Shown here piece by piece: positions 26,554 to 54,575 of a stretch of 64,000 bases of DNA (positions within the stretch are counted from its first letter, which is position 1; each line of letters starts with the position of its first letter). Where the stretch lies: positions 1 through 64,000 of the IMG/VR virus record IMGVR_UViG_3300020190_000007, one strand, 5' to 3'. The notes under the pieces were generated by a model. That model had not been told where the DNA came from. It did not search any database and saw only the letters and a program-made list of their open reading frames with translations. Origin of the DNA: a virus. The translations under genes were made by a program, and so were the position numbers.

Positions 26554-27771
26554 TTATAATATTTCAAGATTGGTGGGGGTTGGTGTTGGAGTTGGTGTTG
26601 GAGTTGATGTTACGCTTGTTGTAATAGAAGGTGTTGGAGTTGGTGTTGGAGTTGATGTTACGCTTGTTGTAATAGAAGGTGTTGGAGTTGGTGTTGGAGT
26701 TGATGTTACGCTTGTTGTAATAGAAGGTGTTGGTGTTACGCTTGTTGTAATAGAAGGTGTTGGACTAGGGGTTATATAATCACAACATTCATCCAAATTA
26801 ACTCTAAAAACTTGTTCACAACATCCTTCACAATCAATCCTTACATACATTTCCAGTAATGTTGCGGTTATACCTGTAATTTCACAAATATCCCCTGTGG
26901 TCATTCCTGTACAAGATGTTACACCTGTTATATTGGTTGATGTAATTCCCGTATAAACCGTACAATTTGTATAATTTGAACCCGAATTAAATGAAATTTT
27001 TATACCTTTTGGGGTTACCGTATCATGAACACAAGGTGCACCCAATGATGAACTTGGGGTTATTGATGGTGTAACACTCGGTGTAACAGATAGAGTAATA
27101 GATGGTGTAACACTTGATGTAACAGATGGTGTTACCGAGCTGGTTACTGACGGTGTAACAGATGGTGTTACAGAACTGGTGGGTGTTACTGATGGTAACA
27201 AATCACAACAAACTAAAGTTATAGCGACACTACTCATGGATGGTATTTGTTGGTTTCCTGAGGCGTCTAAAATATAAACTGAGGGTGCACCTGCTGCGTG
27301 CCTATTACAATCATAATTCGGATAAAAACCAGCGACTGTTACTAAAACATTTTGTTGTGCTCCTGTCGTACAATCATAGTAAACCACGTGTACACCATTA
27401 TCCAAACTTGCGGATATATCTGCATCACCAACGGTCAAATCGAATAAATGACAAAGACACTGAGATGATGTTGTCGGTGTAGGTGTTGGTGTTGGTGTGG
27501 GTGTTGGAAGGGGTGTGCAATATTCTACACCAGTTATGATACCATCAGCCATTTCAACCCTAAATACTACGTTTGGGTCGGTAGTGTAATCAATGTAGTA
27601 TCCAATAGTTGCGATACTTGTACAACCCGAGTCAGTAAAAATAGTATCACCAACACCTAATCCGACTGACCCCAAATCATCGTAATAATAATTACTCGTT
27701 GTTGCTCCAGTGCCACACGCGGCGTTTTTATCTACACCATATTTTAATGATATTGGACCCGTACACGCCAT
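26554..27771 (-). CDS. Cys-rich virion protein with Pro/Thr/Ser linkers (405 aa)
   Basis: Three Cys-rich beta modules are strung on linkers: module 1 (about 1-88, ACTGPISLKYGVDKNAAC), a PTPTPT linker, module 2 (about 101-190, CLCHLFDLTVGDADIS), an SVTPSVTSSVTPS linker, module 3 (about 245-332, ending CCDYITPSP), then a long PSITTSVTSTPTPTP tail. The end looks cut off in the linker, with a tandem stop and an open remnant after it. This design fits a fibre or adhesin on the virion surface. Paired cysteines (CC, CxC) suggest disulfides or metal binding. Confidence 0.65.
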   Translation of the reverse strand: MACTGPISLKYGVDKNAACGTGATTSNYYYDDLGSVGLGVGDTIFTDSGCTSIATIGYYIDYTTDPNVVFRVEMADGIITGVEYCTPLPTPTPTPTPTPTTSSQCLCHLFDLTVGDADISASLDNGVHVVYYDCTTGAQQNVLVTVAGFYPNYDCNRHAAGAPSVYILDASGNQQIPSMSSVAITLVCCDLLPSVTPTSSVTPSVTPSVTSSVTPSVTSSVTPSITLSVTPSVTPSITPSSSLGAPCVHDTVTPKGIKISFNSGSNYTNCTVYTGITSTNITGVTSCTGMTTGDICEITGITATLLEMYVRIDCEGCCEQVFRVNLDECCDYITPSPTPSITTSVTPTPSITTSVTSTPTPTPTPSITTSVTSTPTPTPTPSITTSVTSTPTPTPTPTPTNLEIL

Positions 27772-27774
27772 TTA

Positions 27775-28125
27775 TTAACTTAATTGAATAACATTTATAT
27801 TAAAATCACAAGCAATGTAACAATCACTACATCTTAAATCGACCAAAGCCAATTGATATCCCCCTTGTAGTTTTGTTGCGGGTTGTGGTGTTGGGGTTAT
27901 GTGTCCATCACAGTGTTCAACAAATACAAAAATTTGAGGAATGTTATCTAATAAACTTATATTAAACGTATATCCGGTTGATATTGAAATTAATGTAATA
28001 TTACCATTTAAATAACCAGCATCATCAATGTTGTGAGTCAATCCTGTATAGATATAGTATCCACTACAAGGTGTTTTTCCCGAAAAATTTGAAATTGTAA
28101 TTTGATACTGTTTTATTGATGGCAT
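27775..28125 (-). CDS. Small Cys-containing virion module (116 aa)
   Basis: A single beta-rich module with a C-terminal CSDCYIACDF cluster and one short TPTPQP link at about 76-81. It resembles one unit of its larger neighbours without the long linkers, so it may be an adhesin subunit or adaptor. The coding-strand sequence before the start, TATTTATGAAATATG, is a one-base variant of the TATTTATA element. Confidence 0.6.
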   Translation of the reverse strand: MPSIKQYQITISNFSGKTPCSGYYIYTGLTHNIDDAGYLNGNITLISISTGYTFNISLLDNIPQIFVFVEHCDGHITPTPQPATKLQGGYQLALVDLRCSDCYIACDFNINVIQLS

Positions 28126-28166
28126 ATTTCATAAATATAAAAAATCATATTTTATAATCAAGTATT

Positions 28167-28859
28167 TTAAGCACATGATGCACCATCATACTCATATGGT
28201 GCTGAGTAGGCGCTTTCTCCACATGAACCCTGTATTTTAACCCTTATAAAATAATTTAATAAATATCCTGGTTCTTCAAGGTTTCTAGTCACTGTATTTC
28301 CAGAACCACAACCAGCGGTATTCGTGAGACCCCAAATTGCACCATCTTGTGAGAATTGTATGGTACTCAGATTACAACCACTACATCCTATTATACTAAA
28401 TGTAACGTCTATTGTACCACCAGTTGATGGACACACACTTTGAATTACAGGTGTGGTACACGCACAAGAAGGAGTTGGGGTAATTGTTGGGGTAATTGTT
28501 GGGGTTGGGGTAATTGTTGGAGTAATTGTGGGGGTTGGGGTTATTGTGGGGGTTGGGGATGGACTAACACATACGGTTTGGACATCGAAACACATTGTAT
28601 CATAACATGGGAATGCTTTACTATCGTGAGTGTAAATATTTTTAATGATATACCTACCTGTAGTTTGGTCCGTCATTTTTATCCAAAACTGTGTATCGAA
28701 TGAAAGCCCACTGATTGTAACTGTGGTTGCTGTTAATCCTGTATTATATAAAGTAAAAGTCGAATCATTAGTTTCGGGATATGGGGAATCCCCTGACTTA
28801 TATCTTATCGAATAATTACCGTCGGATACAATATTATATATTCTTACATTTAATCCCAT
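28167..28859 (-). CDS. Virion protein with two Fn3-like modules joined by a TP linker (230 aa)
   Basis: The N-terminal module (about 1-95; YSIRYKSGDSPYP, TTVTISGLSFDTQFWIKMTD) and the C-terminal module (about 132-230; IDVTFSIIGCSGCNLSTIQFSQDG, YFIRVKIQGSCG) both look like fibronectin-III/Ig-like beta sandwiches. Between them is a TPTPTITPT linker of about 30 residues. It ends GASCA, like the SCA end of the 2,940-residue protein. It shares one base with the gene upstream. A surface-exposed fibre part is likely. Confidence 0.65.
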   Translation of the reverse strand: MGLNVRIYNIVSDGNYSIRYKSGDSPYPETNDSTFTLYNTGLTATTVTISGLSFDTQFWIKMTDQTTGRYIIKNIYTHDSKAFPCYDTMCFDVQTVCVSPSPTPTITPTPTITPTITPTPTITPTITPTPSCACTTPVIQSVCPSTGGTIDVTFSIIGCSGCNLSTIQFSQDGAIWGLTNTAGCGSGNTVTRNLEEPGYLLNYFIRVKIQGSCGESAYSAPYEYDGASCA

Positions 28860-30634
28860 TATGTTGTTACGTCAGATGTTATATAGATTATTATAGAGTT
28901 TGTACTATCAGGTATAGTATAAGAATCATTTATAGAACCTGTGCCGCAACTTGACTCTGTATTTGTTTGAACAATTGTTCCATTTCTTTCTATAGAGTAT
29001 GTTATACTACTACAAGAATACCCTAACGCACTACACTCTGAAGTTATTCCCAACGCGTCCATGCTTAATGTAATTATGTCACCCACATATGTTGTTGTTG
29101 TACCACTATAAATACCGACAGATAATGGAGTATTCCAAGTATAGAAAGTTGTTCCGTTTTTCTGTACATTACCAAATGTTCTTGAACAAGAATTTAATTT
29201 CTGATGTTGGTGAACCATTGTTATGGTAATAATACTCGGAGTTGGGGTCGGGGTTAAAGATGGTGAAGGAGTTGGTGTTTTTGATGGTGTGATTGATGGT
29301 GTTACAGTAATTGAAGGTGTTACCGAAACTGTTGTATCAGGAGTTTTTGACGGTGTAGGTGTTTTTGATGGTGTGATAGATGGTGTTTTTGTTACCGTAG
29401 GTGTTATTGTTGGAGTAATTGTTGGGGTAATTGTTGGAGTTGGTGTTTTTGTTACCGTAGGAGTTGGTGTGATTGATGGTGTTGGGGATGGTGACGGTTG
29501 TGGTGTTGGGGTTGCGATTAAATAACTAACAGAATTAGTACAAGTTCCAACACTTTGTATTGTACCACCTGTAATTGGACTACATACTGTTGTAGTATAT
29601 CCTGAAAGTAGTTGTGCGTTTGTTACATTAGTGGCAATTAGTACTATTGTTCCTCCCGTTGTTGTTCCCGATATATCGTAAGGACCTGCTTGTGTTAAAA
29701 AATAAATTTCTTGTAACGAGAATGTATATTGAGCACAACCCGGAGTTAATGACGGGGTTGGAGTAACGGACATTGTTGGTGTGGGTGTTTTGGTGGGTGT
29801 TACTGATGGGGTAATTGTAACACTTGGTGTGATAGTTGGTGTAACTGATGATGTTGGTGTTACTGATGGGGTAATTGTAACACTTGGTGTGATAGTTGGT
29901 GTAACTGAATTAGTTGGGGTTACAGATGGTGTAACACTTGGGGTTGGTGTTGGGGTAACAGATGGACATGATACGACACAAACACTACCCATATTAACCG
30001 CAACACCAGTGTAAGGTAATACCCAATTTAAACACACTTCTGTTCCAATACCTCCAACACCTGTTTGGTAAACACCACAACAATCAGTATAATACCAAGT
30101 ACCAGACGTATCAATCACACCGTCATAACAAACAACTGTTGGGGTTGGTGTTGGGGTGGGTGTCATTGTTGGGGTGGGTGACGGAGGGTTTAAACAACTA
30201 GCACAATCTGTGAATAGTGAGCCTGATTCAATTAATTCTGTAACAGTATAATTGTAATTAGTACTACCGGTACCTTGTTCATAACCTCCTATATAGTTGT
30301 AACACGTACCATCATAAGAAATTGTGGCACCTGTACTTTCAAAGTATTGATTAACCTCAGAATTTTTTAATCCAAAGTAAAGAGGGGGGGTACCAGGAAA
30401 TTCACAATGTTCAAATTCCCACCCATTAAAATCATCATTACATTGTTGACAAGTTGTATAACCTGTAAAAATAACTAAACCCGGTGTTGTCGTGCCTGTT
30501 GTACTCGTTGCGGTCCAACATTTATAATCACCAAAAATTATACTTCCTGGTGTAATAACGGAGGTATCAACATCAAAGTGTTTTGTTGTTCCTGTGTTAC
30601 CACATAATTCAAAAAGTATTCTTTGTATCGGCAT
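28859..30634 (-). CDS. Multi-module Cys-rich virion protein with PTS linkers (591 aa)
   Basis: Four beta modules (about 1-150, 168-225, 300-375 and 475-591) are separated by Pro/Thr/Ser linkers, the longest about 95 residues with KTPTPS and ITPTITP units. Modules carry paired cysteines ([21 protein letters not shown]). The layout is the same as in the flanking genes, so these are paralogous adhesin-type proteins. TATTTATA lies 16 nt before the ATG. Receptor binding is inferred from composition and context. Confidence 0.65.
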
Positions 30635-30675: not shown

Positions 30676-33600
30676 TTATGCACACGACGTACTACATGCC
30701 GTACAATTTGCACATGTTTGTGCACGTTGTGTGAGTGATGAGAATTGAGCGAAACCACCAGGAACAAACAAAGTATTACCTACAACATTTAACATACATC
30801 GAGTATCAGTTGTTGCGTTTGTAAATGTTTCAGTAATGAAAGTTCCATCACAACATTGATAATATAGAATAACTGAACCAGATTGTAAAATATCATCATC
30901 ACTTATTTGAATATCAAAACAATAACATTCACCACAGGCACCCAATTGGACTACCACCCCAAAATGCGGCCCTCCTACGGTTGGGGTATTACAAGAACAA
31001 ATTTCAAGTTGACCACCGTTAACATCCCAATATGTTGGGTCATTTAATTGTTCTGTTTGACTATTACAACAGTTAGTATATTCAACAAAATTTTCCGCGT
31101 ATAATTCATTTATAAAATATTTTTCACACGAGCATGGTGGTGATGGTGTTGGGGTTGGGGTTGGTGTTCGGGTCGGTGTAGGAGTTACTGACCTAGTAGG
31201 AGTTACAGATGGTGTAACAGAAGGTGTTCTACTTGGCGTAACACTCGGTGTTCTACTTGGTGTAACAGAACTTGTAGGAGTTACAGATGGGTCTACTTTT
31301 AGAGATGCAGATGGTGTAACACTCGGTGTTCTACTTGGTGTAACACTCGGTGTTCTACTTGGTGTAACTGAACTAGTGGGTGTAACACTCGGTGTTCTAC
31401 TTGGTGTAACACTTGGTGTAACTGAACTAGTGGGTGTAACACTCGGTGTTCTACTTGGTGTGACACTTGGGGTTTTTGTTGGTGTAGGTGTAACTGAAGG
31501 ACATACTATATGAGTTTCCGATTGACACAACGCGCAACTATCATATTTTAAAGTTAAAATTGGTCCTGCGTCAGGTCCGTAATCAACAAAAGTTGCACAA
31601 ACTTGTGCTGTTGGTATGTACCATACTGAACCGAAGGGTGCTCCAAGTGGTAACCTCGCATTATAAATTGTGGTATCACCAGGACAACAAGAAGAAAAAT
31701 ACGCACCAAAATATTGTGGACTTGGTGATGGTGTTACACTTGATGTTGGTGTTAATGATGGTGTAACACTTGGTGTAACCGATGGTGTAACACTTGATGT
31801 TGGTGTAACACTTGGTGTTCTACTTGGGGTGACACTCGGTGTAACAGAACTTGTAGGAGTTACGGATGGTGTTCTACTTGGCGTAACACTCGGTGTAACA
31901 GAACTTGTAGGGGTTACGGATGGTGTTCTACTTGGGGTGACACTCGGTGTAACAGAACTTGTAGGAGTTACGGATGGTGTTCTACTTGGCGTAACACTCG
32001 GTGTAACAGAACTTGTAGGGGTTACGGATGGTGTTCTACTTGGCGTAACACTCGGTGTAACAGAACTTGTAGGGGTTACTGAAGGAGTAACACTCGGAGT
32101 TACTGATGGTGTAACAGAACTTGTAGGTGTAACAGATGGTGTTCTACTTGGCGTAACACTCGGTGTAACAGAAGGTGTAACAGAACTTGTAGGTGTAACA
32201 GATGGTGTAACACTTGGTGTTCTACTTGGCGTAACACTCGGTGTAACAGAACTTGTAGGAGTTACAGATGGTGTTCTACTTGGCGTAACACTCGGTGTAA
32301 CAGAACTTGTAGGGGTTACGGATGGTGTAACAGATGGTGTAACTGATGGAGTAACTGAACTAGTTGGGGTGACGGATGGTGTTCTACTTGGTGTCACCGA
32401 TGGAGTAACGCTTGATGTGGGTGTTAATGATGGAGTAACAGATGGTGTTCTTGACGGTGTGATGGAAGGTGTAACAGAACTAGTTGGTGTGATAGATGGT
32501 GTAACACTTGGTGTAACCGAAGGTGTAACACTTGGTGTAACAGAACTTGTAGGTGTAACTGAAGGTGTTACGGATGGGGTAACACTTGGTGTAACAGAAC
32601 TAGTTGGTGTGATAGATGGTGTAACACTTGGTGTTCTTGACGGTGTAACAGAACTTGTAGGTGTTACTGAAGGTGTTACTGAAGGTGTAACACTTGGTGT
32701 GACAGAACTAGTAGGAGTTACTGATGGTGTAACTGAAGGGGTAACACTTGGTGTTCTACTTGGTGTAACAGAACTTGTAGGTGTAACTGAAGGTGTTACA
32801 GATGGTGTAACACTTGGAGTTACTGAACTAGTAGGTGTAACACTTGGTGTTCTACTTGGTGTAACAGATGGTGTAACAGAACTTGTAGGTGTTACTGAAG
32901 GTGTTACTGAAGGTGTAACACTTGGTGTGACAGACGGAGTTACCGATGGTGTAACTGAAGGTGTTATGCTCGGAGTTACGGAAGGTGTTACAGAACTTGT
33001 AGGTGTTACAGATGGTGTTCTACTTGGGGTAACGGATGGTGTAACAGATGGTGTAACAGATGGTGTGACACTTGGTGTTACCGATGGTGTTACCGATGGT
33101 GTAACACTAGATGTTGGTGTAACACTTGGTGTTCTTGATGGTGTGATTGACGGTGTTACCGAACTAGTAGCAGTAACTGAAGGTGTAACACTTGGAGTCA
33201 CGGATGGGGTTACTGAACTAGTTGGTGTAACGGAAGGTGTTCTTGACGGTGTGATAGATGGGGTTACACTCGATGTTGGTGTGATAGATGGAGTAACAGA
33301 TGGAGTAACAGATGGAGTTACTGAACTACTTGGTGTTACTGATGGTGTAACACTTGGTGTAACCGATGGAGTTACTGAACTAGTGGGGGTTACTGAAGGA
33401 GTTCTTGAAGGTGTAATAGAAGGTGTAACGCTTGATGTTGGTGTAACTGATGGGGTAACTGATGGGGTAACACTCGGAGTAATAGAACTAGTTGGTGTAA
33501 CGGATGGGGTAACTGATGGAGTTACTGATGGAGTTACTGAACTACTCGGTGTTACCGACGGAGTAACTGAAGGAGTAACACTTGGTGTTCTTGATGGTGT

Positions 33601-36600
33601 TACCGACGGAGTGATTGATGGGGTTACCGACGGAGTGATTGATGGGGTTACAGAAGATGTTGGTGTAACTGATGGTGTGACACTTGGCGTAACTGATGGT
33701 GTGACAGAACTTGTAGGAGTTACTGAAGGAGTTCTTGAAGGTGTAATAGAGGGTGTAACGCTTGATGTTATTGATGGTGTTACTGATGATGTGACACTCG
33801 GAGTAACCGAAGGTGTAACTGAACTGGTTGGTGTCACCGATGGTGTAATAGATGGGGTAACTGATGGAGTTACAGAAGGTGTAACTGATGGTGTAACACT
33901 CGGAGTTTTACTTGGTGTGATAGATGGTGTAACACTAGATGTTGGTGTAACTGATGGTGTAACAGATGGTGTAACACTTGGAGTTACAGAAGATGTTGGT
34001 GTCACCGATGGTGTAACACTTGGTGTAACTGAACTTGTTGGGGTAACAGATGGTGTCACTGATGGAGTGACTGACGGGGTTACCGAAGCGGTTACTGATG
34101 GTGTAACAGAAGGTGTTCTACTTGGTGTAATAGATGGTGTGACAGAACTAGTGGGTGTGATTGATGGTGTTATAGAGGGTGTTACCGAACTTGTTGGAGT
34201 TACAGATGGTGTTACGGATGGTGTTATTGATGGTGTTACAGAAGATGTCGGTGTAATTGATGGTGTGACACTCGGAGTTACAGATGGTGTTATAGATGGA
34301 GTAACGCTTGGTGTAACTGAAGGTGTAACAGATGGAGTTACAGAACTAGTAGGTGTAATTGATGGTGTAACCGAAGGTGTAACCGAAGGTGTTACGGAAC
34401 TTGTAGGTGTGACACTCGGAGTTACAGATGGTGTAACTGATGGTGTGACGCTCGGTGTAACAGATGGTGTTCTACTTGGTGTTATAGATGGGGTAACTGA
34501 AGATGTCGGCGTAACTGATGGTGTGACACTTGGAGTCACGGATGGAGTAACGGAACTTGTTGGAGTAACGGATGGTGTAACTGATGGTGTAACAGAACTA
34601 GTAGGGGTGATAGATGGTGTTACTGATGGAGTTACAGATGGGGTAACAGAACTGGTAGGTGTTACCGATGGTGTAACACTTGGCGTAACTGATGGTGTTT
34701 TACTTGGTGTAACAGATGGAGTTACAGATGGTGTGATACTCGGAGTGATTGACGGTGTTACCGAACTTGTTGGAGTAACAGATGGTGTTCTACTTGGTGT
34801 TACAGATGGTGTAACAGATGGTGTTACAGATGGGGTAACGGATGGGGTAACTGAAGGCGTTACGCTCGGGGTTACTGAACTTGTAGCGGTAACCGATGGT
34901 GTTATACTTGGAGTTACGGATGGGGTTACAGAACTTGTAGGTGTCACCGACGGAGTAACTGACGGTGTCACGCTTGGTGTAACTGATGGTGTAACACTTG
35001 GAGTCACTGATGGTGTTACAGATGGTGTAACACTTGGAGTTACTGAACTAGTAGGTGTAACCGATGGTGTTATACTTGGAGTTACGGATGGAGTTACAGA
35101 ACTTGTTGGAGTTACAGACGGAGTAACTGACGGTGTTACAGATGGTGTGATAGATGGTGTAACACTTGCGGTAACAGAAGGTGTTCTACTTGGTGTTATA
35201 GATGGTGTAACAGAACTAGTAGGTGTAACCGACGGAGTTACAGATGGTGTAACAGATGGTGTTACTGAACTAGTAGGTGTTATTGATGGTGTTATAGACG
35301 GTGTTACCGATGGAGTTACACTTGAAGTTGGAGTTACTGATGGCGTTACTGATGGTGTTACAGATGGTGTGACTGATGATGTTGGAGTGACTGAGGGTGT
35401 AACAGATGGTGTAACACTAGATGTAACTGATGGTGTGACACTCGGAGTAACTGAAGGGGTAACAGATGGAGTAATAGATGGAGTTACAGACGATGTTGGA
35501 GTAACACTCGGAGTTACAGACGGTGTTACCGATGGAGTAACTGAACTAGTGGGCGTTACCGATGGTGTGACACTAGGTGTAATCGATGAAGTAACTGATG
35601 GGGTTACAGAAGGGGTTACAGAAGGGGTTACAGAAGGGGTTACAGAAGGGGTTACGCTCGGTGTAACTGAAGATGTTGGCGTAACCGATGGTGTGGTACT
35701 TGGGGTAACTGATGGTGTAACTGACGATGTAACACTAGGTGTAACTGATGGTGTGACACTCGGAGTAACTGAAGGGGTAACACTTGGGGTTACTGAACTT
35801 GTTGGAGTCACCGATGGTGTTATACTTGGAGTTACGGATGGGGTTACGGATGATGTCGGTGTTACTGATGGGGTGATAGAAGGTGTGACAGATGGGGTTA
35901 CGGAACTAGTTGGTGTGACACTCGGAGTTACACTTGGGGTCACCGAGCTGGTTACTGACGGTGTTACAGAAGAAGTTACAGATGGTGTAACTGATGGTGT
36001 TATTGATGGTGTTACAGAACTAGTAGGTGTAACTGATGGGGTGATAGATGGGGTAACACTTGGCGTAACAGAACTAGTTGGTGTAATTGAAGGAGTTACT
36101 GAAGGAGTTACTGAAGGAGTTACTGATGGAGTTACTGAACTAGTAGGAGTGACAGAGGGTGTTACTGATGGAGTTACAGATGGGGTAACACTTGGTGTAA
36201 CAGAACTGGTGGGAGTGACAGAGGGCGTTACAGAGGGTGTTACTGATGGAGTTACTGATGGGGTAACACTTGGTGTAACAGAACTAGTAGGTGTAACGGA
36301 AGGTGTAACAGATGGTGTTACACTTGGTGTAACCGATGGTGTAACCGATGAAGTGGGAGTTACTGATGGTGTAACACTTGGTGTAACAGAACTAGTAGGT
36401 GTAACGGAAGGTGTAACACTAGCAGTTACTGAAGGTGTAACAGAACTAGTTGGGGTCACTGACGGAGTAACACTTGGAGTCACCGAAGGTGTAACAGAAC
36501 TAGTAGGAGTTACAGAGGGTGTTACTGATGGAGTTACGGATGGAGTTACAGATGAAGTAGGAGTTATTGATGGTGTAATAGATGGGGTAACACTTGGTGT

Positions 36601-39498
36601 AACAGAACTAGTGGGTGTAACGGAAGGTGTAACAGATGGTGTTACACTTGGTGTAATGGAACTAGTAGGAGTTACAGAGGGTGTTTCAGATGGTGTAACA
36701 GAAGGTGTAACAGATGGTGTAACACTTGATGTTGGTGTTACTGATGGTGTAACGCTTGGTGTAACGGACGGTGTAACTGATGATGTTGGTGTTACACTTG
36801 GTGTAACGGAAGGTGTAACGCTTGGTGTAATAGAACTCGTAGGAGTTACAGATGGGGTTATTGATGGTGTAACAGATGGGGTTACAGACGATGTGGGTGT
36901 GATAGAAGGGGTAACGCTCGCGGTCACCGATGGTGTAACTGAACTAGTGGGGGTTACTGATGGTGTAACACTCGGAGTTACTGAGGGTGTGACAGATGGG
37001 GTAACACTTGATGTAGGTGTTAGTGATGGTGTAATAGAAGGTGTAACACTTGGTGTAACAGATGGTGTGGTAGATGGGGTGACAGAACTTGTCGGTGTAA
37101 CACTTGGTGTAAGACTTGGGGTTACTGAAGGAGTAATCGATGATGTTGGTGTTACTGATGGAGTTACGGATGGTGTAACAGATGGTGTAACAGAACTTGT
37201 TGGGGTGATACTAGAAGTTACTGATGGTGTTACCGAGCTGGTTACTGACGGTGTTACAGATGGTGTCACGCTCGGTGTTACGGAAGGTGTCACAGAACTA
37301 GTTGGTGTAACACTTGGTGTAACAGAAGGTGTTACTGATGGCGTAACAGAGGATGTAGGGGTTACAGATGGTGTAACACTCGGAGTTACTGAAGGAGTAA
37401 TCGATGATGTTGGTGTAACACTCGGTGTAACACTTGGTGTTTCAGATGGTGTAACACTCGGTGTAACTGAACTTGTAGGTGTTACTGATGGTGTAACAGA
37501 TGGTGTAATAGACGGTGTTACCGAACTAGTGGGGGTTACTGATGGAGTTACGGATGGCGTAACAGATGGTGTAACTGATGATGTTGGTGTTATACTTGGT
37601 GTGACCGACGGTGTAACTGATGGAGTTACAGAACTAGTAGGTGTTATTGATGGTGTTATAGACGGTGTTATTGAACTAGTAGGTGTTACTGATGGTGTAA
37701 CAGACGGTGTAACAGACGGTGTTACGGAACTAGTAGGTGTAACAGATGGTGTAACGCTTGGTGTGACCGATGGTGTGACAGAACTAGTGGGAGTTACAGA
37801 AGGTGTAACTGACGGAGTGACCGATGGTGTAACAGAACTAGTAGGGGTCACCGATGGTGTTTCAGATGGTGTGACTGAACTAGTTGGTGTCACACTAGGA
37901 GTTACTGAAGGTGTTATACTTGGTGTCACAGAAGACGTTGGTGTAACGGAAGGTGTGATGCTTGGTGTAACAGACGGTGTTACTGAACTAGTAGGTGTAA
38001 CAGATGGTGTAACACTTGGTGTAACACTCGGAGTTACTGAAGGAGTAATCGATGATGTTGGTGTAACACTCGGTGTAACACTTGGTGTTTCAGATGGTGT
38101 AACACTCGGTGTAACTGAACTTGTAGGTGTTACTGATGGTGTAACAGATGGTGTGACTGAACTGGTTGGAGTTACTGATGGTGTAACAGACGGTGTAACA
38201 GACGGTGTAACAGAACTAGTTGGAGTCACAGAAGGTGTTACGCTAGGTGTTTCAGATGGGGTTACAGAACTAGTTGGTGTAACGGAAGGTGTAACACTTG
38301 GTGTAATAGATGGTGTAATAGAACTAGTGGGAGTCACAGAAGGTGTTACGCTAGGTGTTTCAGATGGTGTAACGGAACTAGTGGGAGTTACTGATGGTGT
38401 AACAGAAGGTGTTACCGATGGTGTTACGGAACTAGTGGGAGTTACAGATGGTGTTTCAGATGGTGTAACAGAAGGTGTAACGCTCGGAGTTATTGACGAT
38501 GTTGGAGTAATTGAGGGTGTAACACTTGGAGTTATTGAAGGAGTTACCGACGATGTTGGTGTTACAGATGGGGTAACACTTGGTGTTTCAGATGGTGTAA
38601 CACTTGGTGTAACTGAACTAGTCGGGGTTACAGAAGGTGTTTCAGATGGGGTAATAGATGGTGTAGCACTTGGTGTAACAGAACTAGTTGGTGTAACAGA
38701 TGGTGTTACACTCGGTGTAACCGAAGGTGTAACAGAAGATGTAGGAGTTACAGAAGGTGTAACACTTGGTGTAACCGATGGTGTAACTGAACTAGTAGGT
38801 GTTACTGATGGTGTTTCAGATGGTGTAACACTTGGTGTAACTGAACTAGTTGGAGTTACAGAAGGTGTTTCAGACGGGGTAATAGACGGTGTAACACTTG
38901 GTGTAACAGAACTAGTAGGTGTTACTGATGGTGTAACAGAGGGTGTTACACTTGGTGTAATGGAACTAGTAGGTGTTACAGATGGTGTAACAGAGGGTGT
39001 TACTGATGGTGTAACACTTGGTGTAACCGATGATGTTGGTGTTACTGATGGAGTTACTGATGGTGTAACACTTGGTGTTATTGAACTAGTAGGAGTTACA
39101 GAAGGTGTAAGTGATGGGGTGATGGAAGACGTGGGGGTTACTGATGGTGTTTTAGATGGTGTGATACTCGGAGTTACGGATGGTGTAACACTTGGTGTAA
39201 CTGAACTAGTGGGTGTAACACTTGGTGTTCTACTTGGTGTAACAGAAGGTGTTACTGATGGTGTTTGTGTTAATGTTGGTGTAGGTGTGGGTGAAGGAGT
39301 GGGACAAGGAATTTCAGCCACACAGGTTTTATCCAGTGATGGAAAATAAATTGAGTAAGTACCTAAATAATAGTTTGTTTCGTAATAATATGGCATTAGG
39401 ACGGAACCTAAATTTATGGTACCGCCAGTACAAGGATAAAATGTAATGTCACCGATTTCCTCATTAAAATTACCCGCGTTTATTTTTATTAATGCCAT
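30676..39498 (-). CDS. Giant VTPS-repeat virion protein, putative adhesin/fibre (2,940 aa)
   Basis: About 65 N-terminal residues form a small folded domain (ALIKINAGNFNEEIGDITFY). Then some 2,500 residues of 4-residue SVTP units, punctuated by TPTSS, run to about residue 2590. A Cys-containing module follows (about 2593-2666, SSCCPGDTTIYNARL), a second repeat tract, and a Cys-rich C-terminal domain (about 2787-2940, ending CSTSCA). Acidic SETPS units occur only in the N-terminal third; basic SRTPS units mainly in the C-terminal half. Such a chain would be extended and may be O-glycosylated. A receptor-binding fibre is likely. It has its own consensus-like promoter. Confidence 0.8.
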   Translation of the reverse strand: MALIKINAGNFNEEIGDITFYPCTGGTINLGSVLMPYYYETNYYLGTYSIYFPSLDKTCVAEIPCPTPSPTPTPTLTQTPSVTPSVTPSRTPSVTPTSSVTPSVTPSVTPSITPSKTPSVTPTSSITPSLTPSVTPTSSITPSVTPSVTPSVTPTSSVTPSVTPSVTPSVTPSVTPTSSITPSVTPSVTPSVTPTSSVTPSVTPSITPSETPSVTPTSSVTPSVTPSETPSVTPTSSVTPSVTPSVTPSVTPTSSVTPSVTPSVTPSVTPTSSVTPSATPSITPSETPSVTPTSSVTPSVTPSETPSVTPSVTPTSSVTPSITPSVTPSITPTSSITPSVTPSVTPSETPSVTPTSSVTPSVTPSVTPSVTPTSSVTPSETPSVTPSVTPTSSITPSITPSVTPSVTPTSSVTPSETPSVTPSVTPTSSVTPSVTPSVTPSVTPTSSVTPSVTPSVTPTSSVTPSVTPSETPSVTPSVTPTSSITPSVTPSVTPSVTPSVTPTSSVTPSVTPSITPSVTPTSSVTPSITPSVTPSVTPTSSVTPSETPSVTPTSSVTPSVTPSVTPSVTPTSSVTPSVTPSVTPSVTPTSSVTPSVTPSVTPSVTPTSSITPSITPSITPTSSVTPSVTPSVTPSITPTSSVTPSVTPSVTPSVTPTSSVTPSITPSVTPSVTPTSSVTPSVTPSETPSVTPSVTPTSSITPSVTPSVTPSVTPTSSVTPSVTPSVTPSVTPTSSVTPSVTPSVTPSVTPSVTSSVTPSVTSSITPTSSVTPSVTPSVTPSVTPTSSITPSVTPSLTPSVTPTSSVTPSTTPSVTPSVTPSITPSLTPTSSVTPSVTPSVTPSVTPSVTPTSSVTPSVTASVTPSITPTSSVTPSVTPSITPSVTPTSSITPSVTPSVTPSVTPTSSVTPSVTPSVTPSVTPTSSVTPSVTPSVTPSETPSVTPTSSITPSVTPSVTPSVTPTSSVTPSVTPSITPSITPTSSVTPSVTPSVTPSVTPTSSVTPSVTPSVTPSVTPTSSVTPSVTASVTPSVTPTSSVTPSVTPSVTPTSSVTPSVTPSVTPSVTPSVTPTSSVTPSVTPSVTPSVTPSVTPSVTPTSSVTPSVTPSVTPSVTPSVTPTSSVTPSVTPSVTPSVTPSITPTSSVTPSVTPSITPSVTPTSSVTPSITPSVTPSVTSSVTPSVTSSVTPSVTPSVTPTSSVTPSVTPSITPSVTPTSSVTPSVTPSITPSVTPTSSVTPSVTPSVTPSVTPSVTPSVTSSVTPSVTPSTTPSVTPTSSVTPSVTPSVTPSVTPSVTPSVTPSVTSSITPSVTPSVTPTSSVTPSVTPSVTPSVTPTSSVTPSITPSVTPSVTPSVTPSVTSSVTPSVTPSVTPTSSVTPSVTPSVTPSVTPTSSVTPSVTPSITPSITPTSSVTPSVTPSVTPSVTPTSSVTPSITPSRTPSVTASVTPSITPSVTPSVTPSVTPTSSVTPSVTPSITPSVTPTSSVTPSVTPSVTPSVTPSVTPSVTPSVTPSVTPSVTPTSSVTPSVTPSITPSVTATSSVTPSVTPSVTPSVTPSVTPSVTPSVTPSRTPSVTPTSSVTPSITPSITPSVTPSVTPSKTPSVTPSVTPSVTPTSSVTPSVTPSVTPSITPTSSVTPSVTPSVTPTSSVTPSVTPSVTPSVTPTSSVTPSITPSRTPSVTPSVTPSVTPSVTPSVTPTSSVTPSVTPSVTPSITPTSSVTPSVTPSVTPSVTPSITPSVTPSVTPSITPTSSVTPSITPSVTPSVTPTSSVTPSITPSITPTSSVTPSITPSRTPSVTPSVTASVTPSVTPSVTPSVTPTSSVTPSVTPSVTPTSSVTPSVTPSVTPSVTPTSSVTPSITPSKTPSVTPSVTPSVTPSVTPSITPSVTPTSSVTPSVTPSVTSSVTPSITSSVTPSITPSRTPSVTPTSSVTPSVTPSVTPSVTPTSSVTPSITPSVTPSITPSVTPSRTPSVTPSVTPSVTPSSSVTPSVTPSVTPSVTPTSSITPSVTPSVTPSVTPTSSVTPSITPSRTPSVTPTSSVTPSVTPSVTPSVTPSSSVTPSVTPSVTPSITPTSSVTPSITPSRTPSVTPTSSVTPSVTPSVTPSVTATSSVTPSITPSRTPSVTPTSSVTPSVTPSVTPSVTPSVTPSVTPSVTPSRTPSVTPTSSVTPSVTPSITPSVTPSVTPSVTPSVTPSVTPSVTPTSSVTPSVTPSRTPSVTPTSSVTPSVTPSVTPSVTPTSSVTPSRTPSVTPSVTPSVTPTSSVTPSVTPSVTPSVTPTSSVTPSRTPSVTPSITPTSSVTPSVTPSVTPSVTPTSSVTPSVTPSVTPSVTPSITPTSSVTPSITPSRTPSVTPSLTPTSSVTPSVTPSRTPSVTPTSSVTPSVTPSVTPSVTPTSSVTPSVTPSRTPSVTPTSSVTPSVTPSRTPSVTPSVTPTSSVTPSVTPSVTPSRTPSVTPTSSVTPSVTPSVTPSVTPTSSVTPSVTPSRTPSVTPTSSVTPSVTPSRTPSVTPTSSVTPSVTPSRTPSVTPTSSVTPSVTPSRTPSVTPTSSVTPSVTPSRTPSVTPTSSVTPSVTPSVTPSLTPTSSVTPSPSPQYFGAYFSSCCPGDTTIYNARLPLGAPFGSVWYIPTAQVCATFVDYGPDAGPILTLKYDSCALCQSETHIVCPSVTPTPTKTPSVTPSRTPSVTPTSSVTPSVTPSRTPSVTPTSSVTPSRTPSVTPSRTPSVTPSASLKVDPSVTPTSSVTPSRTPSVTPSRTPSVTPSVTPTRSVTPTPTRTPTPTPTPSPPCSCEKYFINELYAENFVEYTNCCNSQTEQLNDPTYWDVNGGQLEICSCNTPTVGGPHFGVVVQLGACGECYCFDIQISDDDILQSGSVILYYQCCDGTFITETFTNATTDTRCMLNVVGNTLFVPGGFAQFSSLTQRAQTCANCTACSTSCA
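35600..35647 (-). repeat. Four perfect 12-bp tandem copies
   Basis: GGGGTTACAGAA (+ strand) occurs four times in a row without a mismatch inside the scrambled tract. It marks a recent slippage-type expansion of one SVTP unit. Confidence 0.9.
37369..38154 (-). repeat. 138-bp exact direct repeat, 648 bp apart
   Basis: Bases 37369-37506 and 38017-38154 are identical over 138 bp, including the synonymous choices that scatter elsewhere in the tract. The 648-bp offset is 216 codons, so duplication or deletion between the copies keeps the frame. Confidence 0.85.
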
Positions 39499-39588: not shown

Positions 39589-42500
39589 TCATGGACAATC
39601 AAAAATGGAACTACTTAATTCCTCATTAGTTGGTTCTGTAGGACAATGGTTGGCATCGATATAATATTGACCGAGGTTGAATCCAATATTTGGATGTTTA
39701 TCATATTTGTGTTTCATCAGAATTTTGTCACTGTTGTTTCCGTTAAAAACAACAACAAATTCATCATCTATTGGTGTATTGTCTAATTCAAAGTTTAGAT
39801 TGAAGTATAATCCTGTATCGCAATAATTTAAATCGACATCAATTACTTCTATGGTTTCACCATATTTGTTTATTAAATAATCTCCGTGATTGTATAATTC
39901 TTTCGGATGGTCGCAACAAGGTTCAATAAAATCTATTGGTTTTTTCTGTAATTCCTCAGGAAATCTGTCGTCAAAAAAGTAAACACTATTTGTTGGTGTC
40001 CCAAAATTTTCAATAATTCTATTTGTATAAACTCTTAGTTGTGTTGTTGGTAAAACTTCAAAAACTTCATAGGTGTTATTTTGGGTCAATCCCGTGATAA
40101 TACTTTTCTTTATTGATGCTAAACATTCAATATCCGTGATTTCAAGTTTTTGATAGTTGTACGTAAATGAATATCCTGATACAGGACCATTAACAATTTG
40201 TTGGTGACTATATTCTGTACATTGTTTATATGAAGCGGATAAAACATATTCCCCAACATTTAAATCACAAACACTTTTACCACTTATCGTACCACCACTA
40301 ATATAACTTTCAATATTACTATCGGTTGTTTGGTCATCAATGGTTAACCCACTATTAACCACCAAAACAATAGAGTCACATTTTAGCCCATAGTTAAAGT
40401 TTGATTTGTATTGTACTTTTGGTTGTATAGTATAACCCGTGTAATTGTCACAGTATGTTGCACCTGAAACAACTGAAATTGGTGAAGCGATTGTTCCTTG
40501 GTAACCAACAATACTGAATAACTCTACGTGACTCTTTCCTGATGGTGTTGGACATGGGTCATGTTCAATTTTGGGTTGTAGACCTTCTATTTTGAATTTT
40601 ACTTCTTTATTCGCAGCATCTACAATATTGAAATCTATTACATCATTTTCTGAAACACCAGTTAATTTGTATACACAATCACTAACTTTTTGAATGTGAA
40701 CATCCGCATTTTCATTTGTTCCACTCACACAGTTAGCATAAATGTTAAATGGCCATGTTGAACCTTGTTGAATTCCTGTTTTATACCCAATTACCTCAAA
40801 AAATACATCACTTACTAAAGTGCACCCACTATTTGAGTCACAGTAAACGGTATTATCAGTATAAACTTTAACACTGATTCCATGTGTATTTTTTGTAATT
40901 TTATAATCAGCATCAAATCGATAATCAAAATAGTCAACCACCGAACATTCGTTTGGTCCTAATTTTACGGATGAAAACTTAACTTTTTCGACACCATTTT
41001 CATCAGTGTATGTTGTGTATTTTATTAATGGTATTGTTTCTGAAAAATATGTTTGACCAGTGGTTCCCGTGAAAGCGGAATAGGGTTCATATCCCGCGCT
41101 ATTTCTTGTAATAGTTACGTCATCAATCAATACAGATAATGCCGATAACCATAATTCTTTAATTTTAGTAACATCAGGTTCAAGATAATCTTTATAATCA
41201 CATATTAAGGAAAGATTTACAGTATCACCACTTGTTACACCACTCGTACATCCTGTAAATGGTTGTGCGTCAAATAATTTTGCACTATTTGAAGTGTTAC
41301 TTGTTCCACTAACAATTACATACATGGAAGATGTTAGTCCTGTGTAATTAGCACCACCATAAACTGTTCCGTCAATTTCAATTACCGGATAATAAGTAAC
41401 ACCGGTAAGGTTTATTAAACCTCTGAAATTATTTTCTTCGCCTAAAATGTTTTCTAAATCTTCTTCGATTACGTTTTCAAAATCAGGGTATAATTCCTCG
41501 ATAAATTCTAATGGTTGGCAATCATATCTATATTGATATTTTGGTCTACCAAAAACGTTATTTTCAATTAAATTACCACCAGTCCATTGAGTGGTTGATG
41601 GTACTAATTGTTCTACTAATTGTGGCCAATATGGAGATAATTTATTTACAAATTCAGTGACATTTATTTGGTTATATGGTGTGAAACCTGTGGTTTGTGA
41701 AATATAATCTCTATAAACATCCTCTAACTGTATATAATTTTTATTGTAACGAATTTTGTTTGAATTAGTTACAAGACTATGAATAAATGTGTCTAAAAAT
41801 TCAGCAAAAGTTTTACCTGTTTGAGGTAATAAAGTATTTGTACCAAAACTTATTAATAATTCTCTACTTTGTCTAAATATATCATAATCTATACCTCGTG
41901 ATGGTGAGATATAAATTCCAATATTTTTTCTATTTAAAATTAATAAATAATCATCTTCAATTGGTTTTCCGTCTTTATTATCAACAGCAGACACCAATTC
42001 ATAACCTGTATCTAAACCCGGTAATGTTCTATATAAATCAAAATATTCTTCTCCGTATGTATAGTTTTTATTCTTTGTTTTAATTGTTTTAGTGTTACCC
42101 GTCAATATTGAGTTACTACTATCTAAAACAAGTGGAGAACGATGTGATAATGTAATATCGTACCATCCTGAACCTTTACCAAAGAAAATGTTTTCAGTTT
42201 CATTATATGCTCTTCTTGGTAGTCCAGTTTTTTCGTCTACGGGGTAACCCTCTCTATCAAATGTTGTTGATGCTGAGTAGTAAACTTTAGAGTATGTGTA
42301 ACCTGTGCTGTCAAAAGTTGCATAGGAATATCTTTTACTACCTTGAATCGCGTCGTATATATCTTGTTGTAAATTAAAACTAGACGGTATCGATGTGACT
42401 TTATAAATATACTCATCGATTCTAATTAAAGGTTCTGGTGCTCCTAAAAATTTCAAAAAGAAATCAATAGAAGATTTTGTTCCTTTTGATTTATAAATGT

Positions 42501-43833
42501 GTGCGAGATTTATTAATAATCTTCGATAAAACTCATATTCAGATTCAATTAAATTAGTGCCGGTTGACACACCGTCATAGTTTGATTGTAACCTTGAATA
42601 TAAAACATCATTTAAGCTATTCTCATCAAATAAATTTAATGTAGATAAACCTAAATTTTCTGATAAATTCTTTAAAAGTACATCGGGTAGATTATTAATA
42701 CCATCATAACTTACATTTCTCATTTGAGCTATGTTGTCTATATACTTCTTTACACTATCAAAACTTTGTCCGTATAGTTCAAATATACTTTCAGCCCTTT
42801 TATCTTCAGTATCAAATTCAAATAATTGTGGCGCAGCTAAAAATCTGACCATCAAATTAGATTTGTATCCATCTATTTCATCAGCAATGTCTTTTAATTT
42901 ACTAACGTATAAATCGAAATAAAACCCTGTTATTTCTATATTGTAACCATCTTCAGATATTGGCCAAGTTATTACCACATCAACCAAAGATGTTTTTGAA
43001 TTATCTTCAACATCTTTAGGTACTTTAAATGAAGAGGTATAAATTGGATTTGTGTCTCTATTTAAAAGTGATTCTTCTAAATCATCTAATCCTTCAAAAA
43101 ATTCTTCAACTAAACCATCATTTGGTCTTATTAATAAGTTTTCTGAATATGTTGTACCAGTAAATGGTTGTCCATATACTTTTAAGTAAATTCTGTTGTT
43201 TATATTTGGTTCAATATAATCTAAAATTGGATATGATGTGTTATTGGTAATAACAACATATTTTGTATATGACGAATAAAAATTTCTTAATTCGTTTTCA
43301 GTTTCTGGTTTAACCACAGAATTAGGTTCTATAAAAACTAAATTAAACGGATTAAATATTTTGCTTCTTTCAATGTAAAAAGTAGTGGTGTTGGTGCTAT
43401 CATTATATGTTATTCCACTAGCACTAAAATTAGAAACACCAATAGGGGTGTCTGATAAAATCGAAATTGCACCCGGAAACTTATTAATAATTCGAGTTAG
43501 TGAAACTAAAATTCTATCTGTTAATGAACCAAATAAAGATTTATCGGCATATTTTTTGTTACCCTTAAATCTTACTTCGTCAGTTCTTTTTTTTGAAGGT
43601 TTTACAGATGTTGTTTGAATACCTTCAACTTCCTTTAACGTATCTAATGTTAAAAATTGAGAGAATGGATTACTTGTAAAATTTTTAGAATCTTTATCAG
43701 GAATAGACTTATCAAGCGCAAATACGGTGTTAGTTAGTGCAGATGAACCATCGGTTATCTGTCTACCAACTAAGAAATCATTAAATGTTTCAGCTCCGCT
43801 TGACGCTTGACTAGGTACTTTTCTCCTTGCCAT
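39589..43833 (-). CDS. Large tail/baseplate protein with P2 gpI-like motif (1,414 aa)
   Basis: The N-terminal third looks like a virion-binding region (FNDFLVGRQITDGSSALTNTVFALDKS). Around residues 440-475, HIYKSKGTKSSIDFFLKFLGAPEPLIRIDEYIYKV follows the pattern of tail protein I-type baseplate proteins, where a K-G-T stretch precedes a helix and an E-Y strand. The C-terminal ~600 residues are Cys- and Thr-rich beta modules similar in feel to the adhesin neighbours. It probably joins the baseplate to fibres. It shares one base with the gene upstream. Confidence 0.65.
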   Translation of the reverse strand: MARRKVPSQASSGAETFNDFLVGRQITDGSSALTNTVFALDKSIPDKDSKNFTSNPFSQFLTLDTLKEVEGIQTTSVKPSKKRTDEVRFKGNKKYADKSLFGSLTDRILVSLTRIINKFPGAISILSDTPIGVSNFSASGITYNDSTNTTTFYIERSKIFNPFNLVFIEPNSVVKPETENELRNFYSSYTKYVVITNNTSYPILDYIEPNINNRIYLKVYGQPFTGTTYSENLLIRPNDGLVEEFFEGLDDLEESLLNRDTNPIYTSSFKVPKDVEDNSKTSLVDVVITWPISEDGYNIEITGFYFDLYVSKLKDIADEIDGYKSNLMVRFLAAPQLFEFDTEDKRAESIFELYGQSFDSVKKYIDNIAQMRNVSYDGINNLPDVLLKNLSENLGLSTLNLFDENSLNDVLYSRLQSNYDGVSTGTNLIESEYEFYRRLLINLAHIYKSKGTKSSIDFFLKFLGAPEPLIRIDEYIYKVTSIPSSFNLQQDIYDAIQGSKRYSYATFDSTGYTYSKVYYSASTTFDREGYPVDEKTGLPRRAYNETENIFFGKGSGWYDITLSHRSPLVLDSSNSILTGNTKTIKTKNKNYTYGEEYFDLYRTLPGLDTGYELVSAVDNKDGKPIEDDYLLILNRKNIGIYISPSRGIDYDIFRQSRELLISFGTNTLLPQTGKTFAEFLDTFIHSLVTNSNKIRYNKNYIQLEDVYRDYISQTTGFTPYNQINVTEFVNKLSPYWPQLVEQLVPSTTQWTGGNLIENNVFGRPKYQYRYDCQPLEFIEELYPDFENVIEEDLENILGEENNFRGLINLTGVTYYPVIEIDGTVYGGANYTGLTSSMYVIVSGTSNTSNSAKLFDAQPFTGCTSGVTSGDTVNLSLICDYKDYLEPDVTKIKELWLSALSVLIDDVTITRNSAGYEPYSAFTGTTGQTYFSETIPLIKYTTYTDENGVEKVKFSSVKLGPNECSVVDYFDYRFDADYKITKNTHGISVKVYTDNTVYCDSNSGCTLVSDVFFEVIGYKTGIQQGSTWPFNIYANCVSGTNENADVHIQKVSDCVYKLTGVSENDVIDFNIVDAANKEVKFKIEGLQPKIEHDPCPTPSGKSHVELFSIVGYQGTIASPISVVSGATYCDNYTGYTIQPKVQYKSNFNYGLKCDSIVLVVNSGLTIDDQTTDSNIESYISGGTISGKSVCDLNVGEYVLSASYKQCTEYSHQQIVNGPVSGYSFTYNYQKLEITDIECLASIKKSIITGLTQNNTYEVFEVLPTTQLRVYTNRIIENFGTPTNSVYFFDDRFPEELQKKPIDFIEPCCDHPKELYNHGDYLINKYGETIEVIDVDLNYCDTGLYFNLNFELDNTPIDDEFVVVFNGNNSDKILMKHKYDKHPNIGFNLGQYYIDANHCPTEPTNEELSSSIFDCP

Positions 43834-52742: not shown

Positions 52743-54575
52743 TTAGAATGTAGTCGTTCCTAATGTTTTTACTCTGACTTTTATGTCTTTCTGAGGAAAT
52801 CTTATTTGATATATTTGGTTAGATTTCATATAGATAGTCATATCAGATTGAGCGATTTCTTTTGTGTTAGGGTCAATATATGACTGTAACACCTCAGAAG
52901 ATGAATATACCCCACCTACGTTATTAAAAACTCTTATATCAACAGCGTTTACCACACCGTTTACTTCACCTATTGTTTTATATAAATCACCAACAAATAA
53001 TGGGTCACCCATTTTTCTTTTTTCAATTGAAAAGTAACTAACAATATCCTCGATAATGGTTTTAACAATTTCTGTCTGATTACCATTTTTATCAATGACA
53101 ACATCAATTTCCAATGTAAAATCAACCACTTCACCGCTCTGAACCTCTAAGAAATCATTTACCATCCTATATTCAGCTAAGTAAGATAAAATATTATTTT
53201 TTAATGTATTTGAAACTGTATCAATAAGATTACCATTTTCATCATACGATAATAATTTAATTTTTATTTTATTGTCCTCTTCCATCACATTTACCTTAGC
53301 TGGTGCTCCATAGGTTGATGGCATTGTCTCAATTAAAGATTTGTAATCATTAAGAGTTACCGCCCTATTTTGTGCCGAGAAGTTATATGCAATCATATTT
53401 CTAACTTCTTCAATTGTAGGTTGGTCCGCACCACCAACAGCTGGTGTTACGTTTGTTACAATTAATGAATTCTGTACTTGAGTATTCGTTGATGAATTGG
53501 GTCCATTGATTGAAAATTCAACGTTATCCACACTTGTAATAATATCAATACCAAGATTACTGTCTTTACCACCACCAATTCTGTATTTTATGAATAATGT
53601 TGTATTTGATTTTGGTAAAGCACCTAATGATAAGTTATTTAAATAAGTTCCAAGACTTACTTTTAAATTGCCTTGATTATAGTTATCTAAATTATCTAAT
53701 GGATTAACATTACCAGAGCCAAATGTTACCGAAAAATAATTTTCGGGAGTATATTCTGTAATAAATTTATTTGTAACTGGAACGTATGTTCCCGATATGA
53801 AATTATCACTATCAGATGCTGATGTTGGGTCGGGTACGAATACTTTATCTTGTATTAATGATTTTACTTCGTACCATTTATTTTCAGAACTTAAAAATTC
53901 AGAGTTAGTTGGATTATTTACAAAGTTTGTTCCCTCTTTGTGAATTACTCCACTCACCCCTAATATGTTTTGTTCAGGTAAGAATATTTTTAAGAAAGGT
54001 TTTTGGTCAACTTCTGTTATAACTTTTCTATATATTCTTGTTACACCATTTACAACCGCTTCTCTTTTTACAATTGAGTATGATATGAGTCTATTATTAC
54101 CATCGAAATTTGGAATTTTTAATCTGTTTGGTTCTCCCCTTTTATTAAAAGGATTTGAGAAATCAATATCTTCAATTGTTTCAAAAACTTGCCCCCCACC
54201 AGATACCTGAGCCCCTGATTTAATGTTTCCCAAATAACGTTCATCTTCCTTATCCCCCCTTACGGGTACTTGTATAGTAAAATCACACAAAGAAACAGAT
54301 GGTCTATTTCCTGGTATTCTCATACCATATGTTTTAGCAATATGATACAATGATTTCCTTTGTGTTGCGAAATCCAACATTGTTTCTTGCCAAACCCTAT
54401 CAATATGAAAATGTAAATTATCTGTCACAGCGGCATTTAAATCTAATAAAACAGAATAAATTGACGCGTCATTTGTATTCTTAATTAAATCGGGATAATA
54501 TTCCCTTGTAAGATTAACTAATTCCTGTCTTAAACCAGCAAAGTCTCTGACGGCGTATGATATTTTTTTACTCAT
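52743..54575 (-). CDS. gp6: Baseplate wedge protein (T4 gp6 / baseplate J family)
   Basis: The 610-residue protein opens with ISYAVRDFAGLRQELVNLTREYYPDLI and NTNDASIYSVLLDLNAAVTDNLHFHIDRVWQE, the typical start of gp6/J wedge proteins. It ends with the J-type region PTIEEVRNMIAYNFSAQNRAVTLNDYKSLIETMP and a C-terminal dimerisation-like part. It builds the inner baseplate ring with gp25, whose gene is 1 bp upstream. Length is close to T4 gp6. Confidence 0.9.
   Translation of the reverse strand: MSKKISYAVRDFAGLRQELVNLTREYYPDLIKNTNDASIYSVLLDLNAAVTDNLHFHIDRVWQETMLDFATQRKSLYHIAKTYGMRIPGNRPSVSLCDFTIQVPVRGDKEDERYLGNIKSGAQVSGGGQVFETIEDIDFSNPFNKRGEPNRLKIPNFDGNNRLISYSIVKREAVVNGVTRIYRKVITEVDQKPFLKIFLPEQNILGVSGVIHKEGTNFVNNPTNSEFLSSENKWYEVKSLIQDKVFVPDPTSASDSDNFISGTYVPVTNKFITEYTPENYFSVTFGSGNVNPLDNLDNYNQGNLKVSLGTYLNNLSLGALPKSNTTLFIKYRIGGGKDSNLGIDIITSVDNVEFSINGPNSSTNTQVQNSLIVTNVTPAVGGADQPTIEEVRNMIAYNFSAQNRAVTLNDYKSLIETMPSTYGAPAKVNVMEEDNKIKIKLLSYDENGNLIDTVSNTLKNNILSYLAEYRMVNDFLEVQSGEVVDFTLEIDVVIDKNGNQTEIVKTIIEDIVSYFSIEKRKMGDPLFVGDLYKTIGEVNGVVNAVDIRVFNNVGGVYSSSEVLQSYIDPNTKEIAQSDMTIYMKSNQIYQIRFPQKDIKVRVKTLGTTTF

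Follow-up and report, generated by a model that had tools for sequence, protein, structure and literature searches.

A giant phage protein with strict (Thr/Ser)-X alternation suggests a selectively maintained virion stalk exchanged as a module

In the stretch of viral DNA analysed here (the window: 64,000 nucleotides, positions 1 to 64,000 of the IMG/VR record IMGVR_UViG_3300020190_000007), one gene encodes a giant protein built almost entirely of residues alternating between Thr or Ser and a variable partner. The protein, its relatives and its DNA together suggest a very long, selectively maintained virion stalk that is exchanged as a module. We give the whole reading, a virion-attached adhesion fibre with a giant stalk and module exchange, a probability of roughly 0.6.

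The gene (30676..39498) lies on the minus strand, as do the domains and neighbouring genes given next, and is read from an ATG start into a protein of 2,940 residues that begins with MALIKINAGNF and ends with CTACSTSCA. Its first 65 residues (39304..39498) make up a putative virion anchor with 39 invariant columns among six orthologues, and AlphaFold predicted a small all-beta domain of six strands (pLDDT 81.7). The alternating tract follows (residues 67-2593; 31720..39300), written in the repeat dialect VTPS/TPTSS. A Cys-rich domain, C1 (residues about 2592-2667; 31495..31725), separates it from a second, short alternating tract of the same dialect (31141..31497; runs of 65 and 49 aa), and homologues of C1 with 45–49% identity were present in 12 of 25 related records. 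The protein closes with another Cys-rich domain, C2 (30679..31140), a putative binding head that is predicted to be all-beta (AlphaFold pLDDT 75.7) and is 25–36% identical across four orthologues. No significant fold match was obtained for the N-terminal and C2 models in the PDB or for the N-terminal model in BFVD, and the whole protein, heads included, matched no Pfam family at E 0.1, PT repeat-type families included. The N-terminal domain, C1 and C2 had no homologues among the isolated phages of INPHARED (tblastn, E up to 1), a scan of viral contigs with the C2 of the window alone found nothing, and our literature search on VTPS or PT-repeat phage proteins found no description.

Upstream of the gene lies a conserved neighbour of 1,414 aa (39589..43833), which was used as the flank for the species tree. 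The translations of three downstream genes (26554..30634; 591, 230 and 405 aa) contain Cys-rich domains like those of the stalk gene and PT-rich linkers, and give weak matches to PHROGs of unknown function. On the same strand and in the same cluster, a baseplate wedge (gp6/J-like) protein (52743..54575) matches PHROG phrog_6 "baseplate wedge subunit" (E 1.7e-22) as well as Pfam Baseplate_J and marks a virion gene cluster. From this gene position we infer that the 2,940-residue product is a virion protein, the name it carried in the preliminary description of this DNA.

That description also reported near-perfect VTPS/TPTSS repeats over about 2,500 residues, which is borne out for residues 79-2591 (2,513 aa, with 698 S, 687 T, 555 P, 455 V and 68 I). 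The real constraint is tighter than "VTPS repeats" and consists of a strict two-residue alternation. Thr or Ser stands at every second residue from 67 to 2593, an unbroken run of 2,527 aa and 1,264 sites with zero exceptions, compared with runs of 24 aa on average and 43 aa at most in residue-shuffled controls. The other phase, the X positions, holds P, V, S, I, R, E, A, L and K. Thr precedes Pro 558 times and Ser only twice, while Ser precedes Val 455 times, and the codon heterozygosities are 0.52 for Thr before Pro and 0.77 for Ser before Val. The vague label "low-complexity" can thus be replaced by a precise rule, a hydroxyl at every second residue, which predicts a testable modification or structure.

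The scrambling of third codon positions described earlier was evident in the codon composition of the tract. Val is encoded by GTT 237, GTA 165, GTC 32 and GTG 21 times, Thr by ACA 424, ACT 166, ACC 77 and ACG 20 times, Pro by four codons and Ser by both the TCN and AGY blocks, and this codon use is close to that of the other genes of the window. Synonymous identity between neighbouring units (lag 4 codons) was 0.443, nearly random when compared with 0.406 in class-shuffled codons. The tract does not consist solely of 12-bp units, however: what is duplicated in it are segments of 54 bp and more, not single units. Lag peaks appear at 18, 36 and 40 codons together with long 54-bp copies, and the longest exact repeats measure 138 bp (first copy 38017..38154, second copy 37369-37506) and 123 bp. 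Likewise, neighbouring units differ at third positions overall, but some stretches are near-identical, such as the youngest part of the tract (31813..32330), where TRF found an array of near-identical 54-bp higher-order copies with an 18-residue unit. Around 31764-32764, 61–90% of positions lie in repeated 30-mers.

To judge the age of these repeats and the constraint on them, we compared the tract with those of related phages. Orthologues recognized by the N-terminal domain were found in 16 of 34 related virus records (paralogues included) and at 30 loci, and those in related IMG/VR phages measure 2,737–5,472 aa. They keep the rule with quite different repeat units: TNTPTNTVTP in G004, PTNTLTPTNTI in G051 and TITPTTSVTP in G052, with unbroken T/S alternation over 3,439, 3,269 and 3,635 aa, respectively. 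At the T/S positions, pS reached 0.70 and pN only 0.001 in G051, the cleanest case, and 0.706 and 0.022 in G004; the X positions, unlike these, vary freely. As many as 81% of the nonsynonymous single changes possible at T/S codons would leave {T,S}. None of the alternating positions leaves {T,S}, although synonymous sites are close to saturated. The protein is therefore under purifying selection over the full length of the tract, which supports the earlier proposal of old repeats held by such selection. The same-dialect tracts of other lineages (G010, G036, G037 and G040) also speak for old repeats, since they have DNA words in common with the window only at about the codon-shuffled level. With more than 1,200 {T,S} sites, the tract offers a natural case in which selection on a protein can be read from a repeat tract almost without alignment. 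In three relatives (loci L107 of G004, L113 of G019 and L114 of G020), a short non-repeat island, APSCDIDYTxLPSPTP, is conserved inside tracts of different dialects; it is absent from the window.

Could the tract instead be low-complexity sequence grown by neutral slippage, with no selection at the protein level? The near-identical 54-bp arrays at its 3′ end would agree with such an origin. Two things speak against it: all 1,264 sites hold T or S although synonymous sites are saturated, and slippage tracts elsewhere have uniform codons. Thr-codon heterozygosity was about 0 in microsatellite-like (T-A)n or (T-P)n runs on other contigs, viral and bacterial, compared with 0.5–0.75 in mixed (T-X)n tracts, in line with the earlier expectation that a purely slippage-grown tract would be more uniform. 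Scrambling therefore marks age under constraint; it is common to mixed (T-X)n tracts and not special to the window phage. Given that pN is far below pS at T/S positions, neutral slippage was rejected as very improbable.

A further suggestion was that the codons are scrambled mainly because identical DNA, prone to recombine out, is selected against. We consider this improbable. Adjacent-unit identity is indeed near random, identity in the G051 tract is slightly low at the lag of its 6-codon unit (z -2.2), and tracts are identical across assemblies, hence stable. However, repeated 20-, 30- and 40-mers were more frequent than in codon shuffles in each of the six tracts tested (0.17–0.40 against 0.06–0.20 for 20-mers), the longest exact repeat was 58–138 bp against about 35 bp in the shuffles, and the mean z over lags was positive in six of six, lag autocorrelation revealing no consistent identity deficit at unit lags. 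A forward simulation of synonymous mutation and segmental duplication under protein constraint, with duplicated codons per codon about equal to substitutions per codon, reproduced the long exact-repeat spectrum without any avoidance. The simulation under-predicted repeated 20-mers (0.18–0.25 compared with 0.38), so that its error lies on the side of too little identity, the opposite of what avoidance would produce. The data thus lend no support to selection against identical DNA, and no DNA-level explanation by avoidance of identity is needed. The sample is in addition biased toward scrambling by the loss of truly identical tracts from short-read assemblies: contigs of relatives end inside tracts, and short-read data therefore favour scrambled ones. 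One relative, G035, ends exactly at the end of the second 138-bp copy of the window and G019 has a 127-bp exact repeat as its tail, while most other broken contigs have no long exact repeat at their end.

These breaks, and an interruption of the reading frame at about 12.7 kb, next to a 116-bp repeat, in three G004-type assemblies, would also be consistent with the tract being an assembly artefact, an explanation to which we assign very little weight. Six assemblies, each under a different IMG metagenome ID, gave the 16,419-bp G004 orthologue without a single difference, and over 2,130 bp G035 departs from the window only by three synonymous SNPs in three successive codons (gene position 1124-1130). 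An artefact is thus largely refuted for the family, and the length given for the tract in the window is provisional. The alternative version has a 53-bp match 108 bp away, which looks like gene conversion between units, with mis-assembly also possible. A 2,559-aa ORF on the plus strand (31670-39349), open across the whole tract, raised the question of whether the antisense product is the one under selection. We rejected this with near certainty: the conserved N- and C-terminal domains lie in the sense frame, and with random synonymous codons only 0.26 stops are expected in this antisense frame, compared with 120–373 in the other antisense frames, so that the ORF is a by-product of the (T/S)-X grammar.

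Sister phages turned out to carry different tracts behind the same start of the gene. Between the window and G004, the flanking genes have a dS mostly of 0.13–0.44 (two neighbours are higher, at 0.90 and 1.17), the upstream 1,414-aa protein being 96.5% identical with a dS of 0.44, and the N-terminal domain resembles the flank with a dS of 0.43. In the C-terminal domains, by comparison, dS is 1.2–1.4 and dN 0.5–0.6, and the tracts are unrelated. Sliding identity falls from 90–100% upstream to background about 150–300 bp into the gene for the pairs window/L128, L149/L150 (95–100% identical upstream) and L124/L127. The last pair has a common dialect and a 97% identical flank, yet its tracts cannot be aligned. 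In the tree of the upstream protein, sister rows repeatedly have different dialects. Because sisters that are 96–99% identical just upstream carry unrelated tracts, the stalk and the C-terminal heads seem to travel together as one cassette that follows a conserved anchor. The exchange of very long stalk modules between phages, with abrupt changes of dialect, bears on the evolution of host-range parts and on the reasons why short-read assemblies of such phages break.

Based on these results, we propose a fibre that is attached to the virion, probably at the tail or baseplate, and anchored by the small beta domain. The strictly alternating (Thr/Ser)-X tract would form a giant, extended stalk that acts as a spacer, roughly 0.5–1 micrometre long at an estimated 0.3 nm or so per residue, and the Cys-rich beta domains at its far end may contact the host surface. 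The trait under selection would be the hydroxyl residue at every second position, likely so that an extended chain presents all its hydroxyls and, through their probable O-glycosylation, becomes a stiff bottlebrush. In the DNA, synonymous sites would drift to saturation while segments of at least 54 bp are copied within the tract, and whole stalk-plus-head modules would swap between phages with a junction just after the anchor domain. The family with related N-terminal domains includes proteins with PT linkers elsewhere in related genomes. One of them, a 574-aa protein at L116 (G017:C1:40000-48500), has PT linkers, a Laminin_G_3 match above the cutoff and a sub-threshold F5/8 type C match, and points to a family of fibres that share this anchor and carry lectin tips; these lectin-like domains sit in a different protein that has only the N-domain family in common with the stalk protein.

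As for glycosylation, a search of GT2 and GT1 Pfam families found four PF00535 glycosyltransferase (GT2) matches above the cutoff in the genome of the window, elsewhere than at the stalk locus. Such enzymes make glycosylation of the stalk possible, and they could modify DNA or host glycans instead. The tract might alternatively be an unglycosylated structural or entropic element (an extended strand, spacer or shield). The alternation puts all T/S on one face of a strand and P, V, I and N on the other, which would suit such an element. However, the zero tolerance is specific to hydroxyl residues while the X positions vary widely, and O-glycosylation is found in serine-rich-repeat adhesins, which share this alternation (PMC6973325); we therefore regard an unglycosylated tract as unlikely, though deserving of some weight. 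Our boldest proposal, offered tentatively, is an undescribed class of giant virion glycoprotein bottlebrush. Its alternating Thr/Ser sites would number in the thousands, every one of them required and glycosylated by phage-encoded enzymes, and its fibres, up to a micrometre or more long, would be traded between phages as stalk-plus-head cassettes, in functional convergence with the bacterial serine-rich-repeat adhesins.

These serine-rich repeat proteins (SRRPs) of Gram-positive bacteria are O-glycosylated stalk adhesins with very long alternate-Ser tracts, in which the sequence and number of repeat units vary by species and strain and the alternation is kept (PMC6973325). Like them, the phage protein joins a long alternating Ser/Thr tract, of 2,527 aa, to a binding region, putative in our case. 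It differs in being encoded by a phage gene in a baseplate cluster, in being mostly Thr-X with Pro at X, and in its order of anchor, stalk and head. Neither the KxYKxGKxW signal nor the LPxTG anchor motif of SRRPs was found in the translation of the stalk protein, and for that reason we do not claim family membership; SRRPs are the closest parallel in function, with no claim to homology in sequence.

The tandem amino-acid repeats of Borgs are likewise dominated by Pro and Thr, under protein-level selection and in part located in extracellular proteins, but their units formed recently and show no nucleotide differences (PMC9879509). In the stalk tract, by contrast, synonymous sites are saturated and exact repeats reach at most 138 bp; perfect repetition of the Borg type was not found, repeated 40-mers covering just 7.6% of tract positions. 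Huge phages encode predicted proteins of up to 7,694 aa that are similarly very large, some of them with a tentative structural annotation, and the available part of that report describes no repeat grammar, codon evolution or module exchange for them (PMC7162821). Other (T-X)n tracts share the alternation and mostly scrambled codons; their runs extend to 476 aa among the other IMG/VR hits and to about 1,076 aa among the sampled GTDB hits. The stalk family stands apart by the longest runs of those compared (2,500–3,600 aa), by its single conserved locus and by the clear swapping of modules. Long alternating Thr/Ser tracts with mostly scrambled codons were common in Chloroflexi, Paenibacillus, FCPU426 and Goldbacteria (L291-L370).

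The genome of the window also carries a bS21 gene (G000:C1:117531-117689), as do four of the five relatives searched, which recalls the bS21-encoding freshwater Bacteroidetes phages; the window phage and its close relatives are, like these, large and apparently freshwater, and the stalk gene is not mentioned in the accessible portion of that paper (PMC9723584). The source phage is probably a freshwater phage that infects Bacteroidetes. Two further repeats were noted in the window. The 405-aa downstream gene contains a 48-bp unit repeated 3.2 times at 99% identity (26582-26737), young and codon-uniform, in contrast to the scrambled stalk tract of the same genome, and a 57-bp unit repeated 2.6 times at 100% identity (12935-13082) overlaps ORFs on both strands.
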